Below the pieces are notes generated by a model that made no database searches, was not told the DNA's origin, and was given only the letters and a program-made list of their open reading frames with translations. From an uncultured bacterium (GTDB taxonomy: Bacteria; Armatimonadota; UBA5829): a DNA stretch of 64,000 nucleotides. Where the stretch lies: NCBI GenBank assembly GCA_938074205.1, contig CALJES010000008.1, forward strand, positions 62,001 through 126,000, read 5' to 3'. Positions 6,316 to 47,699 of this stretch are shown here, one piece after another; positions within the stretch are counted from its first letter, which is position 1; the number at the start of each line of letters is the position of its first letter. Made by a program: the position numbers and the translations under genes.

Positions 6316-6630
6316 CTAGAAAGGCTCCCCCAGTGTCTTGAGGGAAAGATCAGGATGTTCTCTGAACAGAAGTTGCCAGTAGTGGGTGAAGTCTGTCCAG
6401 GTCGTCGCATTTTCCAACTCACCTTTGCTGCTTATAAGCCTCGTTTTTTGGCCCTTCTTGAAATTCTTGGAGGAATCGAAGAGCATATGCTCGAGCAAAT
6501 GCGACACCCCGTGATATCAGCATGTTCCTTGCGCAAGCCGACACGAAACCACACCTGCACCGTAAAGACCGGCGCCGTGTGATTCTCTTCCGTCAAGACA
6601 GTCAAGCCGTTGGGAACCTAGTTTCGATGA
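6316..6630 (-). pseudogene. Relic of an M16-family zinc metallopeptidase N-terminus
   Basis: Read leftward, about 100 codons match the start of an M16 (insulinase/PqqL-type) peptidase. One frame gives VPNGLTVLTEENHTAPVFTV, then QVWFRVGLRKEHADITG. The homology continues one frame over as VSHLLEHMLFDSSK, carrying the HxxEH zinc motif, then GELENATTWTDFTHY, and ends at TAG 6316. A missing base in the G run of ATCACGGGGTGT joins the frames. A second shift lies upstream near 6620 (IETR then VPNG). Intact M16 proteins are above 400 residues, so about three quarters are gone. No other part of the gene is recognisable nearby. The fragment cannot make an enzyme. Confidence 0.75.
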
Positions 6631-6744
6631 CCCCGCTTACGTGTGGAAAGCGGACTATGCACCAACTACTGCTAGTGCGAAAATAGCCGCCGATTTTTGA
6701 CGAGTTATAAGTCTGTAGAGGGACAGCATGGTTGCCCCCGAGTC

Positions 6745-6778
6745 AAAAAGCCCTGTTGGCTAGCCAACAGTGCTTTTT
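6745..6778 (-). terminator. Intrinsic terminator after the foldase gene
   Basis: CTGTTGGC (6753-6760) and GCCAACAG (6763-6770) pair perfectly. The stem continues past one mismatch into C/G pairs, with AAAAA on one side and TTTTT on the other. It lies 34 nt downstream of the leftward foldase stop and would work in both directions. Confidence 0.85.
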
Positions 6779-6811
6779 GGTCACGCTCGGCTTTTGCGGA
6801 GTAGGTAGATA

Positions 6812-7819
6812 TTACCTTCTGGGCGCAGTGGTACCTGGAGTTCCGGTCGCACCAGGCTTTGCAAGCTCTATTGCCTTGGTAGCTTCCTTCTTGATCATAT
6901 CAGGTATGTCTTTATATGTGGAAGATGTGACCTGAATGTCCGCTTTCTTTGTGAAATTGCGTATTGCAGTGCGGAAGTCGTTCTTCTTGGTGCCCTCTTG
7001 CAGAGCAAGTTGCTCTCTGATTACATCTTTCACATCTTCATACGGTGTAATTTTCTTCGGTCTGCGCTGGTCGGCTTTGATGATAACCCACTTGCCCTCT
7101 ATCAAAGTGGGTTTACTGAACTCGCCCGGTTTGAGTCCAAAAGCGAGGTCCTTGACGATCTGCGGTACATTCGAGGTGCGAGCGACCCATCCTACGACAC
7201 CTTGGGTCTGCTTTGTAAGCTCGTCTTCGCTGTATTGAAGAGCCACGGTGCCGAACTCCGTACCGGCTTTGAGCAACTTGTAAGCTTTCTCAGCCTTGTC
7301 CTTGTTCGAGCAAATGATAGCACTTATTCTTACTTGCTCCGGCCTGACCCACGGTGAGTTGGGTTGCTTCAAGCCGTCTTCATATACCTTGCGCACTTTG
7401 GATTCAGGTATATTCACGCCCTTTGAGACAATGTTTACGAAAGCCTGCTCGACAGCGATTTGGTGCTTCAGATTTTCCAGAGTCATTCCCCGTGCAGCAA
7501 GTACCTTGCGCAAGTCGCCCCCACTCTGCTTCTTTATAAACGTTATCTTTTTGTTGATTTGTTCTTCTGTAGGTTCGACCTTTTGTTCCCTAGCGAGCTG
7601 CTCCACCAGTTTCTCTGCTATGAGTTGCTGAACTATGAAGCGACCGGCCATTTGCGGCCCCTGTGGTGTCTGAACGGGCACGCGCTCGAGTCGGGAATAG
7701 AACTCGTCTTTAGTAATCTTTTCCCCATTCACGCGTATGAGTGCCTTCTTGCCGCAACCTGCCAGTGTAGTTACGACGACGGCAAGAATAAGTATTACGA
7801 CAACACGCATTCTTCTCAT
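6812..7819 (-). CDS. PrsA/SurA-type foldase lipoprotein with peptidyl-prolyl isomerase domain
   Basis: 335 residues. The N-terminus is a lipoprotein signal with lipobox LAGC ending at Cys22, so the protein should be anchored to the outer face of a membrane. Residues about 28-160 form a SurA-N/PrsA-like helical chaperone region, beginning ALIRVNGEKITKDEFYSRLE. Residues about 160-265 form a parvulin-type isomerase domain with VRISAIICSNKDKAEKAYKL, FGTVALQYSEDELTKQTQG and a LKPGEFSKP segment. The tail is rich in Thr, Pro and Gly. It would help exported proteins fold. GAGAGGAG stands before the ATG, and the gene ends at a strong terminator. It fits the large number of secreted proteins in this window. 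Confidence 0.92.
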   Translation of the reverse strand: MRRMRVVVILILAVVVTTLAGCGKKALIRVNGEKITKDEFYSRLERVPVQTPQGPQMAGRFIVQQLIAEKLVEQLAREQKVEPTEEQINKKITFIKKQSGGDLRKVLAARGMTLENLKHQIAVEQAFVNIVSKGVNIPESKVRKVYEDGLKQPNSPWVRPEQVRISAIICSNKDKAEKAYKLLKAGTEFGTVALQYSEDELTKQTQGVVGWVARTSNVPQIVKDLAFGLKPGEFSKPTLIEGKWVIIKADQRRPKKITPYEDVKDVIREQLALQEGTKKNDFRTAIRNFTKKADIQVTSSTYKDIPDMIKKEATKAIELAKPGATGTPGTTAPRR

Positions 7820-7897
7820 TTCTCTATGCTCCTCTCGAAATCATAAAATCTTCGCTAATAGCTCAGCTGGCCCAGCAACCACGCGGCGCCTACTTAG

Positions 7898-8668
7898 CTA
7901 ATGAAATAGCGCCAGATCGCGTTGTAGATATCCTCGGAGTCTCAGCACTGCCTGCGTATGCAATTGATACACTCGCGACTCCGAAACTTCCAGTATCCTT
8001 CCTATCTCCTTGAAAGTCAGGCCTTCATAATAGTAAAGCGCGATAACGAGTTTCTCGCGGTCGGGCAGTCTGTCGATACTTTCCGTCAGAAACTTCTTGA
8101 TCGCGAAGGATTCTACTGCGCCGGAGGTGTCTGCACTGCCATCGTGGACAACGTCCGACAAATGAATCTTCTCGTCCCCCTCGCCAGAAAGAAGGATGTC
8201 GTCCAGACTTAGAATCGACGCACGTCCCGTGTCTGCCAACAGGAGATGGAATGCGTCTATTTCCATCCCCATAGCTTCGGCCACTTCTTCTTCAGTCGCA
8301 GGCCTTCCCAGTTTACTCTCCAAGTCGAGATACGTTTTTTCAAGTGCCTTAACGCGCTCTCTTACCGACCGAGGCACCCAGTCCTCTTCGCGAAGCATCT
8401 CCAGGATAGCCCCACGAATGAGGGCGATTGCGTAGGTCTCAAACTTGACCTGGCGACCTGCGTCAAACTGGTCAATAGCTTTTATCAGACCTATGATACC
8501 GGCGGATATCAGGTCATCCCTTTCAACGTTCGGCGGCAGACTGGTGACCACCCGTCCTGCGGTAATCTTGACAAGATACGCATAGTGCTGAATGAGCTGA
8601 TCTCTAGCTTTGGAGTCTCCCAGCGCTTTGAACCTGTGCCAAAGCACCTGGAGATCGGGCACGCTCAT
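7898..8668 (-). CDS. FliA/WhiG-family RNA polymerase sigma factor (sigma-70 group 3)
   Basis: 256 residues with regions 2, 3 and 4. Region 2 has NVERDDLISAGIIGLIKAID then VKFETYAIALIRGAILEMLR. Region 3 has VPRSVRERVKALEK. Region 4 ends KEIGRILEVSESRVYQLHTQ, a helix-turn-helix for the -35 element. Length and motifs match the FliA/WhiG/SigD branch rather than RpoD. No flagellar or sporulation genes are seen nearby, so its regulon is unknown here. I chose the ATG at 8668 (MSVPDLQVLWHRF). The frame is open 29 codons further upstream but that part looks non-coding. The gene lies between the foldase and the GT5-like gene, all leftward but with sizeable gaps. Confidence 0.9.
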   Translation of the reverse strand: MSVPDLQVLWHRFKALGDSKARDQLIQHYAYLVKITAGRVVTSLPPNVERDDLISAGIIGLIKAIDQFDAGRQVKFETYAIALIRGAILEMLREEDWVPRSVRERVKALEKTYLDLESKLGRPATEEEVAEAMGMEIDAFHLLLADTGRASILSLDDILLSGEGDEKIHLSDVVHDGSADTSGAVESFAIKKFLTESIDRLPDREKLVIALYYYEGLTFKEIGRILEVSESRVYQLHTQAVLRLRGYLQRDLALFH

Positions 8669-8866
8669 TGGCTCACAGTCCGTCCATCGGAGCAGAATCT
8701 GCGATGCTCCCGCTCTTGCACCGCAGTTTGAGCCACATTGTACTGGAGACGCCACAATCTGTCAACAAAACACAAAGACAGCCACTAAGCCTTATACGGT
8801 TCAATCTCCTCAAATGATTCCCGTTTGCGAATTGGAAAAGGTTTCCAACCGCCACTCACTGGCACG

Positions 8867-9508
8867 TCAAGCAGCCAGGAACTGATTCTTGCCGCCGGCG
8901 AGCACATCCCTATAGATGGCCTCATATGTTGATGCCAACTTGCTGGGGGACTTGTAACATCGCACAACTCTCACGTCATCACCCAGCCCCGACCCTGTAA
9001 CAAGCGTGTTCGTAGCACCGGAGTCCTTTACAGAGTGAACAGTAGTTACAAATGCTCCTCCCATATCCCATTCTCTTACACACAACGCGTGCAGGTACAC
9101 GGCCGCCAGCCCAGGGCAGGCGTCGTTGATGTGGACAATGTCGGGCGACCAGCTTGGAACGATGGCTTTCAACCCTCCCAAAACGCCGCGAACAAGCAAC
9201 GCGCACCACTCGCCATCCTGTTTGTCAGACGGACTCCGAGTGTCCTCCTCATTACACACGAGATAGTGGAAGACACCCTCAATCAGTGACACGAACACGC
9301 TGACGCTGCGGATCGAGCCGTCCTCGAAGACTAAGGGCAATCGATCAATTACAGGCCGAGCATTTATACGGGCATCGTCCACTAAGGAGTGGTGCGCCAG
9401 CACGGCAATACGGGCATCGCTGTTCCTTGCCAACAAGCCTTTTGCCAGGGTGCGTCCGAAATCCCATTCAGGCTGCGGAGTTACAGCGTTCAGTATGAGA
9501 ATCCTCAA
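8867..9508 (-). CDS. Short GT5-like (glycogen/starch synthase N-domain) protein
   Basis: 213 residues. It begins MRILILNAVTPQPEWDFGRT and holds SPDIVHINDACPGLAAVYLH followed by VTTVHSVKDSG. This resembles the N-terminal Rossmann half of GT5/GT4 glycosyltransferases, where the family has PDxVHxHD and a TxHN-type loop. It ends SPSKLASTYEAIYRDVLAG, which looks like the end of such enzymes. The GT-B C-terminal nucleotide-sugar domain of about 200 residues is missing, and no such sequence follows. A functional glycosyltransferase is therefore doubtful. It may be a binding or regulatory relative, or the product of an in-frame internal deletion. No membrane segment is visible. Confidence 0.6.
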   Translation of the reverse strand: MRILILNAVTPQPEWDFGRTLAKGLLARNSDARIAVLAHHSLVDDARINARPVIDRLPLVFEDGSIRSVSVFVSLIEGVFHYLVCNEEDTRSPSDKQDGEWCALLVRGVLGGLKAIVPSWSPDIVHINDACPGLAAVYLHALCVREWDMGGAFVTTVHSVKDSGATNTLVTGSGLGDDVRVVRCYKSPSKLASTYEAIYRDVLAGGKNQFLAA

Positions 9509-11924: not shown

Positions 11925-14900
11925 ATGGTATTCCGAAGAGGGTTCTTGCCCGCGTTGCTCGTGGCTCTGTGCGTCACGCTCATTTCCTCGTCCTCCCAGT
12001 CTGCAGTAATCCGAGTCAAACCGTATGGCGACGATTCGAATGACGGCTCCTCCTGGGAACTTGCTAAGAAGACCATCACGGCAGCAATTGCCGGTGCATT
12101 TTCTGGCGATGAGATCTGGGTTGCGGCTGGTGTGTACTACGAGCGAATCACCCTTAAAGACGGTGTCGCAATCTACGGCGGCTTCGCAGGCAATGAGACT
12201 GAACGCGGGCAGAGAAACTGGACAACCAACGAGAGCATACTGGACGGCAACCAGCAAGGTTCGGTAGTTGTGTCGCCGTTAGGCGCCGGTCAAACTACGC
12301 GTATTGACGGCTTTGTGGTTCGAGGCGGGAACTCGCCCAACGTTGGCGGAGGCATACACTGCTCAGCCTCATCTCCTGTTATTGCTAACAACACGATAAT
12401 TGACAACAGCGCGGAACGTGGCGGCGCGATATCCTGCCTCGGTTCATCTCCTACGATTTCAAACAACACGATAAGCGGCAACAGCGCCAAGTACTACGGC
12501 GGTGGTATATTTTGTGCCGGGTCGTCGCCCGCAATATTCAATAATACAATCACGGGATGCAGTGCAGCAGCCGGCGGCGGAATATGCTGCCAGAGTTCGT
12601 CATCTCCAAGGGTTGTGAACAACATTATAGCCTACAACAGTTCCGGGATCTTCGTGTCGGGCAGCAATCCCGTTTTCAGAAACAACTGCGCATACAACCC
12701 CGGTGGTTACAGCTACTCAGGCGTATCTGCAGACCCAACTGACATTCAGTTAGATCCCGTACTTACTGCAGTTGGGTACGGACAGGTGCACATTTAACCT
12801 GACTCTCCTTGTGTTGACGCTGGCGATGACAGTGTGGTGCAGCCTGGGTGGGTTGACATGGATGGTCAGGCTCGGACTCAGGGAGCGCACGTGGATATTG
12901 GCGCGGACGAGTCCGACGGGACGGTGTGGCAATTTAGTCCCCGTGTTGTTTATGTCAGCACTTCAGGAAATGATTCGAACGACGGCCTGAGCTGGTCGAG
13001 TGCGAAGCGAAGTGTGCAGGCTGGAATAGACGCAGCTGCTGCGCTGCTGGGTGCGGAGGTATGGGTAGCTGCCGAGGTATACAATGAGCGAATAGCGCTG
13101 CGGCGGTACGTGCACGTCTATGGCGGGTTTGCTGGGAGTGAAGATGCGAGGGACGAGCGCGATCGATTTACGAATACAACGGTGCTTGACGGCAATGAGG
13201 CTGGGAGCGTTGTGACGGCTTCCGGAATACCGTACCGCACCGCTACAATTGACGGTTTCACGGTTCGGAATGGCAAGGCAAGCAATGGGGGTGGAATATA
13301 CTGCTATTACTCATCTCCTATGATTTCGAATAACGCTGTCTCAGATAACAATGGATATGGAGTTTACTGCTCCCACTATTCATCCCCTGAGATTTCCAAC
13401 AACGAGATCTCTGGGAACACGGGTGGGGGAATATATTCCGAAAACTCTTCCCCGACAATCTCAACCAACCAGATAGTCGGCAATGCCGCGGACTACGGAG
13501 GTGGCATCAGATGCTACAGCTCATCTCCAACAGTTTCGAACAACACCATAGCGGCGAACAGTGCATAAAGAGGCGGTGGTATATACTGCTCAAATTCGAC
13601 CCCCAGCATATGTGACAACGCGATAGTGGAAAACCGTGCGTCGTTACTTGGAGGTGCAGCTATATGCTGCGAAGGCTCATCTGCCACTATTCGAGACAAC
13701 AGGATATACAGCAATTGCGCGCCGTCTGGCAGTGGCGCAATATACTGCTTCGCCTCAGAGGCTGTTATTTCTGGCAACACGATAGCTGGCAACAGCGCCG
13801 CATCCGGAGGAGCTATAGCGATCTTCAACGGCTATGGACGACCCGTTACGATTTCCAAAAACACGCTATCAGGCAACACAGCGCTCGGTGCTGGCGGGGC
13901 GATATACTGCACGAACTCTTCCGCGACGATATCAAACAACGTTATCACTGGCAACAATGCCTCCATAAGCGCATCAATGTACTGTTACGAGTCATCGATT
14001 GTGTTCTCGAACAATACGGTAGCTGTCAACAGCGCCACGACCGGCGGGGCGTTGTCGTGTTCCTACGTTTCCGGTACGATTTCGAATAACATCATTTCAT
14101 TCAACACTTCCGGAATCTCAGATTCGGGCAGTAACCTTCTTCTCAAGAACAACTGCGTATACAACCCCGAAGGCTACGACTACTCCCACATTTCACCAGG
14201 TGAAAACGATATCTCTGTGGACCCGGTTTTTGTGTCTCTAAGCAAAGGTGATTACCGTTTGCTCGGAATCTCGCCTTGCATAAACTCAGGCTGGAACGAT
14301 GCGCCTGGCCTGTACGAAACCGATGCGGACGGACTTCCTCGGATATGGCGTGGGGTAGTAGACATCGGGGCATATGAGTATCATCCTCGGCGACTTGGCG
14401 AAATCAAACTCCTCGAAGACGAATGCGCGGTAACCACCGAATCAGCGATGGTGACGGCGGTTTTTGGCAACGTTTTCTACGTGGAAAGTCCGAACAGGAC
14501 AGCTGGGATGCGTGTTTACAGACAGAACCACGGGGTGACACAGGGAGCATTGGTAAGCGTGCGAGGCATAATCGGAACAAATGCAGACACTGAGCGTTAC
14601 ATTGAGGCAGCTGAAGTGACGATTTTGGGCACCGGCGCTGTCGAGCCGCTGGCGATGCGCAACCAATTCGTAGGCGGAGCGGACTTGCTGCTGCCTGGCG
14701 CAAAGTGGGTGACTGTGTCCTACGGGCAGAAGGGCGTTGAAGATGGGTATGGCCTGAACAATATCGGTCTGCTGGTAACAACTTGGGGCAAGGTCTCCGA
14801 AGCTGATGCGTATGAAGGTTGCTTCAGGATAAATGATGGATTTGGTGCGAGCACCAAATGCATTGTGCCGGAGGGAACCGCGGTTCCAGAGGTTGGCGAT

Positions 14901-15017
14901 TGGGTAGGCGTGACAGGTATATCCTCCTGCGAGAACGCTGGGGGACAGGTGCACAGATTGATTCGCCTGCGAGGACAAAGTGATATAGCCGTGTTCAAGC
15001 ACGCCCCGGAGGGGTGA
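11925..15017 (+). pseudogene. Giant secreted right-handed beta-helix protein, interrupted by two in-frame TAA codons
   Basis: One reading frame of 1,031 codons is broken only at TAA 12796-12798 and TAA 13566-13568. Pieces are 11925-12797, the following block to 13568, and the block to 15017. The frame starts with a signal peptide (MVFRRGFLPALLVALCVTLI). Two homologous units follow, each opening with a DDSNDGSSW/NDSNDGLSW motif, then a YGGFAG motif, then rows like NNTISGNSA and GGGIYC, the coils of a parallel beta-helix. The first TAA replaces a residue in HI-x-PDSPCVDAG, normally Gln (CAA). The second replaces X in NSA-x-RGGGIYC. The last 210 residues (from about 14390) form a paired OB-like module also seen at 47.1-47.7 kb. 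Intact relatives would be surface adhesins or polysaccharide lyases. As read, only a first-unit fragment of 290 residues would be made. Confidence 0.85.
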
Positions 15018-45082: not shown

Positions 45083-47699
45083 ATGATCGTAGCTGTAGTA
45101 TTCGTTCTGGCTGAATATGGAGGATTTGTTCATGCTGCACTCAATCTCGTCGGTCGGATCAACCTGCATCCGATGGGTTCCGGCGCATACTTTTGTGAGT
45201 TCGCCTGCTCCGACCAATCGACCCGACAGGCATTCTTCACGGGTCGATCCAACGGTGCAATAGCCGTAGTGGATATGAATACCCGTAAAGTAGTGCGTTT
45301 CATCCCGTCATCCCGACAGGCGGCAGGCCCTATGCGATAGACGTTAACGAGTCCGAGCACGAGCTTTACTTCACTTTGCCATACGAGCAGTGCGTTGGCA
45401 TAGTCCAAGAATCCGGCAGGCCAGTCGAGAAAGTATACACCGGCGGCGGAAGCGACGATCCTGCCTGCGTTGTAGCGTCCGACGGCACTGGCCGCTTTTA
45501 CGTGGCGAATCGCGGTACAGGACAGATTATTCCCGTTCGAAAGCCTGGGAATGTCTTAGAGCCGGCAATCTCAGTGCCAGCCTCTCTAACTCTCCACTCG
45601 ATCGCGGTTGACCACAGCCGCCTGCGGCTCTACGCCGGCTGTCAGGGAAATCCGGCCTTGGGGATGCCAGATCAGGTTCTTGTAATCGACATAAACCCTG
45701 CTTCTGAAACCTACCATACCATAATCGACCAGTTCGATCTGCCGCAAGGTTGTCCGTCCCGGCGAATGGCGGTCAACGAGGTTACGAACAGGGTCTACAC
45801 TGTAGGAGGGGAAACGCTGGCGATTCTGGACGTAGGCCCGCGGCAAGTGCGAACCTTTCAGATTCAGCCTATGACCGAGCATGTGGCAGTTGACCCTGTC
45901 GCTAACCTGGTCTGGGTCTTGCGGACCTTCGCGTCAGGGTACGGGGAGTGGAACAATTGGTACGTACTGGTGGACGGCGCGACTGAGCAAATTACGGGGA
46001 TTTGGAAAGACTAGTGGTTGGGTCCAGGCGGCATAGCCGCGGATCATGTGGCACATTGCGCTTACTATGCATCTGGTACGGCCGCGGCAAGGTGGGAAGG
46101 ATCAGGCCGGCCCGAATTCTTAGACCTTGCCTATCAACCCACCCAGATAGCCCTCGATCCTGCTTCCGGCAGATTTTGGACCGGTGACGCGCTGCTTGAT
46201 GTCGTTCACGAAGTCGACATAGCAACCAACCAGCCTATACGGAAGCTTACAACCCAGGACAGAGCTCACAACGGCATTGCGTTCGATGCGGCTGGGTACG
46301 TTTATGTGGCCTGCGACGACCGAAACACCCGACCACTATTGGCGGTTCTGGACGCCTCAAGCGGAGCTGAGGTCACATTCATTCCGATACACCACTGGCC
46401 AGAAGACGTAATGATTAACACCACATCACGCAAGGCCTACGTGGCATGTCCCGGAAGCACGTGCGTGGATGTAATCGATATCGACCCGGCGTCGCCGACG
46501 CGATGGAAGTTGATCAAGAGCATACAGGTTGATCCCACCCCCGGCTACGGGAACGAACCCTGGCGGCTGGCCGTAGACCCCAACCAGAACCTAGTATTCG
46601 CCGTGACAATGGGAAACCCAATCGGTTCCAAACCTTCACGAGTGGTGGCGATAGACAGCGAAACTGACCAAATAATCAAATACAGAGATTTCGTCAATCC
46701 CTGTGGTAACGTGGGGATTGCGTGTCTCGCGTCGCAAAAACGCGTGTACGTCGGCGTGGACAGGTATCCGAAATCTGCCGGCCTCGACATTCTCGATGGC
46801 TACAGAGAATCCGCACACTTCCTGGAAACGATCCAGGAGGTCAATCTTCCGTTTATAGCCTACGAAGTCTGCGCTAATGCGGCCTCTAACCGGATCTACG
46901 CAAGGTGCGAGTCTCAGGGCACCATCGCTGTCATCGACGCGGTATCCGGCGAGCTGCTATTTATCACGGGAAGTGAGCAATCGCAACGCGCCTTGCTGTC
47001 CAGCCGAAGACTGGCTTGCTGTACATCGGCGCTCCACACACAAGCTCGGTTTTGATCTTTCGCGACGATGTACAACGGGATGTGGCCTCGATTAAGCAAC
47101 TACCTGACGGTATGTTCGTGGAGCTTTTGTCGAAGCCTGTGACAGCAGGCACGGATCAGATTGGCGGTGACTTTTACATCGAAGAACCCGACCGCTCCTG
47201 CGGCATTCGAGTTCGGCCCCAGGGTTTAGCTCCTGTAGCGGAAGGCGATTGCGTAAGTGTAGTAGGCAGGTTGGATACGCTGCCGTCCGGAGAGCGCGCG
47301 ATTGTCGATGCAAATGTTAGGATGGCTCCTGTTCAAACGCCACTTCCGACGCCCCCTGGCATGCCGAACCGGTCGGTAGGAGGAGGGGACTTCTTTTACG
47401 ACCCAGGACCTCCGAAGATAGGCCAGATAGGTGTCACAAACGGCTTTGGTCTCAACAACATCGGCCTACTTGTGAAAACGTGGGGTCGAGTCAAGTCGAC
47501 CGACAGTCAATCAAACAGTTTTACAATAAACGACGGATCAAATATCGACCTGAAATGCCTCGTGCCCACGCATGTCTCCCTACCTTCGCCCGGCCAGTAC
47601 GTATGCGTTACAGGGGTCAGTTCGTGCGAGCAAGCCGAGGATGAAGTGAGCAAACTACTTCTGATAAGAAAACAAAGTGATGTACAGGTGCAAAATTAG
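45083..47699 (+). pseudogene. Decayed secreted beta-propeller gene with C-terminal OB-like module
   Basis: Four open pieces add up to one protein. A signal-like start (MIVAVVFVLAEYGGFVHAAL) leads into YVTN/SMP-30-like propeller repeats such as TRQAFFTGRSNGAIAVVD. Three lesions break the frame. An 8-bp tandem duplication of TCATCCCG (near 45300) shifts it; removing one copy restores FIPTGGRPYAIDVNE. TAG at 46012-46014 lies in-frame between GIWKD and WLGPGGIAADH. A lost base near 46980 shifts it again before IATRLAVQPKTGLLYIG. The last 210 residues (from about 47087) form a module with FGLNNIGLLVKTWGRV and QYVCVTGVSSCE, also found at the end of the beta-helix gene. Intact it would be a surface or secreted protein of about 860 residues. 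Confidence 0.85.

Follow-up and report, generated by a model that had tools for sequence, protein, structure and literature searches.

A usually C-terminal tandem OB-fold module on secreted proteins of one class of uncultured Armatimonadota, and its co-occurrence with exosortase and PEP-CTERM

One class of uncultured Armatimonadota shares a tandem OB-fold module as a tag on its secreted proteins, with dozens of copies per genome in most members, and its presence across the class coincides with that of exosortase and PEP-CTERM proteins. We tentatively propose, at a probability of roughly 0.45, that the module is a non-cleaved attachment domain that would hold Sec-exported proteins at the surface or in the matrix of an exosortase/PEP-CTERM layer. 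A role in attachment, suggested earlier by a reading of the window (the whole 64-kb stretch of DNA analysed) from its letters alone, hereafter the sequence-only reading, is plausible.

Results

Two copies in the window

The window carries two copies of the module, at the C-terminal ends of two host genes on the forward strand. The features are as follows.

11925..15017, + strand: secreted right-handed beta-helix host gene, translated in a single frame with two internal stops; Pfam Beta_helix in pieces 1 and 2, Disaggr_assoc in piece 3
14388..15014, + strand: module copy 1, tandem OB, C-terminal (BLASTP; AlphaFold pLDDT 96.3, pTM 0.91)
14394..14636, + strand: predicted OB unit 1 of copy 1 (model residues 1-81 by strand assignment; solved OB folds align to about 1-86)
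14637..14771, + strand: glycine-rich linker of copy 1, conserved in the A1 profile, with GYGLNNIG at its end (AlphaFold model)
14772..15005, + strand: predicted OB unit 2 of copy 1 (model residues 127-204; RPA14 chain 8aas_C aligns with Z 12.6 over 85 residues, model range 82-204)
45083..47699, + strand: propeller-like host gene with weak family matches only, all under cut-offs; ORFs 45083-45340, 45376-46014, 46018-47055 and 47016-47699 in different frames
47082..47693, + strand: module copy 2, tandem OB, C-terminal (BLASTP, iterated profile)

In a single pairwise BLASTP comparison, the two copies were identical at 88 of 209 residues (42%, E = 1e-42), in agreement with the similarity of about 210 residues described in the sequence-only reading, and both C-terminal strings quoted there were found in the window translations. 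That reading placed the region correctly, except that its start at 14390 lies two bases off frame; the in-frame copies are 14388-15014 and 47082-47693. As it had also stated, the hosts are otherwise unrelated, since their upstream parts differ by Pfam (beta-helix vs propeller-like with weak matches), and both carriers are disrupted as assembled, the beta-helix gene by two stops and the propeller-like gene by division into several ORFs.

Predicted fold and sequence relatives

The AlphaFold model obtained with the A3 alignment predicts two OB barrels joined by a glycine-rich linker (pLDDT 96.3, pTM 0.91), which fits the two OB-type units read from the sequence. In this predicted structure, each half aligns to solved OB domains with Z of about 11-12.6. 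The best structural match of unit 2 was archaeal RPA14 (8aas_C, Z 12.6, rmsd 1.8 over 85 residues), and unit 1 matched OB domains of tRNA-synthetase, RPA and HIN proteins with Z of about 11-11.7. When the whole module was searched with Foldseek, HIN-200 proteins, which contain a pair of OB folds, led the best 50 matches listed with TM scores of 0.36-0.43 by module length. With TM at or below 0.43, none of the solved chains among the structural matches listed has the whole tandem arrangement.

Sequence searches also gave OB-fold matches. The A1 profile, which was built from the own genome and was not chosen by the linker motif, matched 9sf8 (6e-6), RPA14 (6e-4) and YgiW (0.013), the first of these being an alignment of unit 1 to the N-terminal part of an endonuclease/exonuclease/phosphatase protein. 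With the A3 profile (92 rows), RPA14 was found at 0.0015, 9sf8 fell to 0.036 and YgiW was absent from the matches listed. Among 30 copies scanned with Pfam, RMI2 was reported weakly in six and tRNA_anti-codon in three (best E 7.1e-4), and dockerin type I (PF00404) gave zero matches at E <= 0.1. Copy 1 matched no Pfam family at E <= 0.1, and copy 2 stayed below the cut-offs for RMI2 (17.5 vs 29.4 bits) and Rep_fac-A_3 (15.7 vs 23.5 bits). Three NCBIfam families were reported at E <= 0.1 for the 30 copies (best 0.013, ExeM_NucH_DNase); none was convincing and none was a T9SS model.

The invariant columns of A1 are G58, G95, G125, G132 and G175, and the near-invariant ones include G38, E67, P85, G94, G120, L127, D148 and G149; linker conservation in A3 is partly built in because loci were chosen by a linker pattern. 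The copies are acidic, with a median pI of 5.05 (85% of 92 below 6) and a median net charge of -4. Each half of the predicted module thus resembles the OB barrel of RPA14, YgiW, tRNA_anti-codon and HIN-200 proteins, but the module differs from them in its acidity, its occurrence on signal-peptide proteins, its mostly C-terminal position and the TM scores of at most 0.43 among the best 50 matches listed.

Spread within the class and the phylum

In the own genome (G000; 3.02 Mb, 19 contigs), copy 1 as a query gave 42 matches and the A3 profile gave 62 at E <= 1e-8. The sequence-only reading, which saw two proteins, was therefore right in its observation and incomplete in its scope. In the own-genome stretches fetched, the iterated profile reported 50 domain rows, most of which close a long ORF, and 48 ORF rows held a full or partial module; three of these 48 derive from a single broken gene (L048).

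Across the class, 24 of 28 genomes carried the module, each with 20-101 matches to A3. The remaining four, three members of a single genus in family f1 (G006, G010, G012) and G024 of family f5, gave zero A3 matches at E <= 1, and no module-like tail was seen by eye at their 12 beta-helix loci with a complete C-terminus. Among 33 genomes sampled from the rest of the phylum, five had 1-3 weak matches with A1, and four of these five still matched A3 at E <= 1. Furthermore, a scan of genome contigs by peptide pattern confirmed 129 loci, of which 80 were kept (the named loci); these come from Armatimonadota/Armatimonadetes, one Abditibacteriota, or unlabelled bins. The named loci were picked by the pattern GLNN[IV]GLL[VI], so that copies lacking it were missed, and several of the loci share a genome. 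A profile search with a listing of host domains, as proposed with the sequence-only reading, thus found the module class-wide and on diverse hosts, and the well-known, widespread domain of established function that would have spoken against that reading was not found by Pfam, NCBIfam or the contig scan. In the viral-contig scan, two IMG/VR contigs (L196, L197) contained loci encoding a module relative, which may be viral or host DNA.

The sequence-only reading had also suggested that the two broken carriers reflect a shared loss of selection. This is not borne out, given the long open frames of most own-genome carriers. Among the rows listed for the own-genome, class and phylum searches, stops inside the module were found only at G000:C1:50028-50621, and those in the L006, L017 and L019 copies are, by coordinates, the genes' own ends. 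The exception (L048) is a third broken module gene of the own genome, with two stops within the module. In another class genome, an open frame of 1608 residues (G026:C12:85786-90288) has several beta-helix matches and a terminal module, so the architecture of the window gene is intact in a relative; one stretch fetched at this site (L192) reads N in part.

Position in proteins and range of hosts

The module was mostly C-terminal. We counted 135 ORFs that contain the whole module and whose C-terminus is complete, after setting aside three that are cut by the edge of their locus and 20 that hold part of the module. In 115 of the 135, no more than 30 residues follow the module (31/35 in the own genome and 84/100 in the named loci). 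The distance to the end was at most 10 residues in 104 and at most 3 in 82. In the other 20, the module lies away from the C-terminus, in some cases near the N-terminus. An N-terminal hydrophobic segment was called in 35 of 44 own-genome carriers and 78 of 84 others (113/128 carriers over 250 aa) by a permissive hydrophobicity rule, not a trained predictor.

The hosts identified by Pfam were S8 subtilases, C1 papain with lectin-like domains, amidase_3, GHL10, cellulase and DUF362 proteins, kelch, RCC1 and DUF5122 propellers, beta-helix proteins, and proteins with CBM9, CBM96, F5/8 or fn3; 40 of 47 planned pieces were scanned, and 14 of these matched no family at 1e-4. Only unit 1 is present in FG-GAP hosts, and in a cadherin host (L050) the module is internal. 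The nearest other module was on a similar host for 46 of 105 comparable modules, compared with 272 of 7140 for any pair, which indicates that the module is partly inherited with its host and partly shuffled. Its description as a transferable module is borne out by this tandem OB on unrelated secreted hosts, mostly at the C-terminus.

Some ends deviate from the full arrangement. Secreted proteins at L055:3019-5859, L036:3709-6435 and 6484-9072, L053:8711-12631 and L031:10288-12966 end in unit 1, without linker or unit 2. The 151-residue ORF L056:2975-3442 has a hydrophobic N-terminus followed almost directly by linker and unit 2, and is either a stand-alone unit 2 or a fragment. Proteins at L108, L109 and L093 have a C-terminal part beyond the module that, by eye, resembles a domain of the formylglycine-generating-enzyme type in its motif.

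Relatives outside the class

Outside the class, the OB units of L149, L152 and L154 lie within proteins that also contain a lamin-tail or GHL10 domain; the lamin-tail proteins (PF00932; L152, L154) carry module relatives whose OB units are internal. L149, a GHL10 protein, is 39% identical over 510 residues to the own-genome GHL10 carrier L049, with unit 1 common to both, and ends in a Dockerin_1 match where L049 ends in the tandem module. Dockerins are C-terminal docking domains on extracellular enzymes, a likeness to the module in position and possible use, but the module differs from PF00404 in sequence. The ends of L152 and L154 look dockerin-like by eye, and Pfam reports no dockerin there at 0.001. 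Comparison of L149 with L049 suggests that an internal OB domain may have become the usual terminal domain in the class.

Co-occurrence with exosortase and PEP-CTERM

Exosortase (PF09721) and PEP-CTERM (PF07589) were each found in 24 of 28 class genomes. The identical 24 genomes have the module, exosortase and PEP-CTERM, and the identical four lack all three. The four fall in two families, which, going by family placement and not by a tree, probably reflects two joint losses; the crude chance of two coinciding branches among 54 is 7e-4, with branch lengths ignored. As controls, SLH, Omp85 and Poly_export were kept in 28/28 class genomes, and Beta_helix in 8/8 genomes tested, all four module-less ones included. 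Their retention speaks against SLH as the partner of the module, and the co-loss is not explained by loss of the outer membrane (Omp85), of polysaccharide export (Poly_export) or of all beta-helix proteins. Among the 33 phylum genomes sampled outside the class, 25 had exosortase and 22 had PEP-CTERM without an amplified module, which shows that the system needs no module and makes the module look like a later addition. Copy numbers among the carrier genomes were weakly correlated (Spearman 0.41, p 0.048).

Module genes also lie next to PEP-CTERM genes more often than expected. In the own genome, 5 of the 12 PEP-CTERM genes above the Pfam cut-off have a module gene at most 1.5 kb away, compared with 0.87 expected in a binomial test that takes PEP-CTERM positions as uniform, yet module genes cluster. 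The 15 PEP-CTERM genes accepted in the 80 named loci come, by accession, from six genomes; 11 of them have a module gene no more than 410 bp away, compared with 2.2 expected, the 410-bp limit having been fixed after the distances were known. None of 4000 random placements reached 11, and 10 of the 11 are on the same strand; 2 of 17 pattern hits had been dropped by eye (L077 14113-14358, L082 12671-13414). Most module genes in the own genome and the named loci have no PEP-CTERM neighbour. According to Haft (2006; PMC1569441), most PEP-CTERM genes form single-gene operons, which would make the pairing unusual.

In blastp searches at 1e-4, the sequence upstream of a module was matched by six of 28 PEP-CTERM proteins, and for three of these the matching module protein was encoded by the neighbouring gene (L107, 55% over 244 residues; L081, 38% over 118; L127, 28% over 290). 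The module is terminal in the L081 pair and internal in L107 and L127, so the latter two pairs show no exchange of ends. One ectodomain with either end was seen only in L081 and three non-neighbour hosts (L046, L032, L056). None of the ORFs matching the PEP-CTERM pattern was a module ORF, and no module gene lies in the two 20-kb stretches around exosortase genes. The own genome has two exosortase genes, L157 (G000:C11) and L156 (G000:C4), whose open frames span 292 and 559 aa, the longer of which we take to be perhaps an EpsH-EpsI fusion; by eye, both stretches resemble polysaccharide loci.

The module shares with the PEP-CTERM/exosortase (EpsH) system, as set out in PMC1569441, a C-terminal feature found on many unrelated signal-peptide proteins and many times per genome, and its presence equals that of exosortase in 28/28 class genomes. 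It differs from the PEP-CTERM tail in being folded, by prediction, and about 200 aa long, without PEP motif, transmembrane helix or basic tail, and exosortase is also present, with no amplified module, in 25 of the 33 genomes outside the class. In search listings, we found only a LuxI/LuxR paper for Armatimonad PEP-CTERM or exosortase and only periplasmic force transducers for Armatimonad secreted-protein C-terminal domains, and none joining PEP-CTERM/exosortase with OB-fold or choice-of-anchor, or placing a tandem OB-fold in the sorting of secreted proteins.

Discussion

We propose that the folded, non-cleaved tandem OB would be a general, usually C-terminal tag on large Sec-exported proteins. 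Enzymes, propellers and beta-helix proteins would thereby stay on the cell surface or within an extracellular matrix that would also hold the exosortase-processed PEP-CTERM proteins. There it may bind a ligand, either a matrix polysaccharide or a surface protein, and exosortase would not act on the module itself. The analysis shows the predicted fold, the preference for the C-terminus, the range of hosts, the amplification, the co-occurrence and the adjacent genes; that the module lies at the surface and binds a ligand of either kind is our inference. Counting against this proposal are the 20 of 135 ORFs whose module is not terminal, the internal position of the module in L107 and L127, the presence of exosortase and PEP-CTERM elsewhere in the phylum with no amplified module, the many module genes that lack a PEP-CTERM neighbour, the two 20-kb exosortase stretches with no module match, the weak correlation of copy numbers, and the small number of joint losses, about two. 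It is also possible that a shared lifestyle caused the co-loss of module, exosortase and PEP-CTERM.

Several other functions would account for part of these data. The module could be a CBM-like extracellular domain that brings enzymes to environmental polysaccharides with no link to the cell's own surface system, since glycan binding is within the range of OB folds, glycosidases and proteins with CBM9, CBM96 or F5/8 are among the hosts, and internal copies occur. We consider this doubtful because the module is also found on proteases, an amidase, DUF362 and propeller proteins, strongly prefers the C-terminus, and was lost together with exosortase and PEP-CTERM where beta-helix proteins stayed. 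Rather less expected, by our estimate, is that the tandem OB is the docking half of a two-part assembly whose receptors would be supplied by exosortase-processed PEP-CTERM proteins or the matrix that they help to build, the OB tails recruiting the large Sec-exported proteins to it; loss of exosortase would then make the tags useless and both would vanish.

That the module is an export signal in the manner of type IX CTDs, read by its own secretion machine in the outer membrane, would suit its terminal position in 115 of 135 ORFs and the use of a single fold on many cargos, dozens per genome. A strictly terminal signal is hard to reconcile with the 20 ORFs that have the module in another place, in some cases close to the N-terminus, and we regard this function as unlikely. 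Attachment to extracellular DNA in a biofilm matrix is more improbable still. In its favour, most of the solved structures nearest to either half are OB domains that bind nucleic acid (RPA14, tRNA synthetases, HIN-200), and unit 1 matched 9sf8 at 6e-6 with A1, but at 0.036 with A3; moreover, the common OB fold is no proof of function, and the acidity of the copies (median pI 5.05, net charge -4) argues against DNA binding.

If the module is the attachment domain that we favour, a single unnamed tag, carried by dozens of secreted proteins in each genome, would account for much of the exoproteome of an uncultured lineage. In addition, should the tie to exosortase hold, the module would add a testable partner to the PEP-CTERM system, which is known mainly for its own short-tailed substrates.
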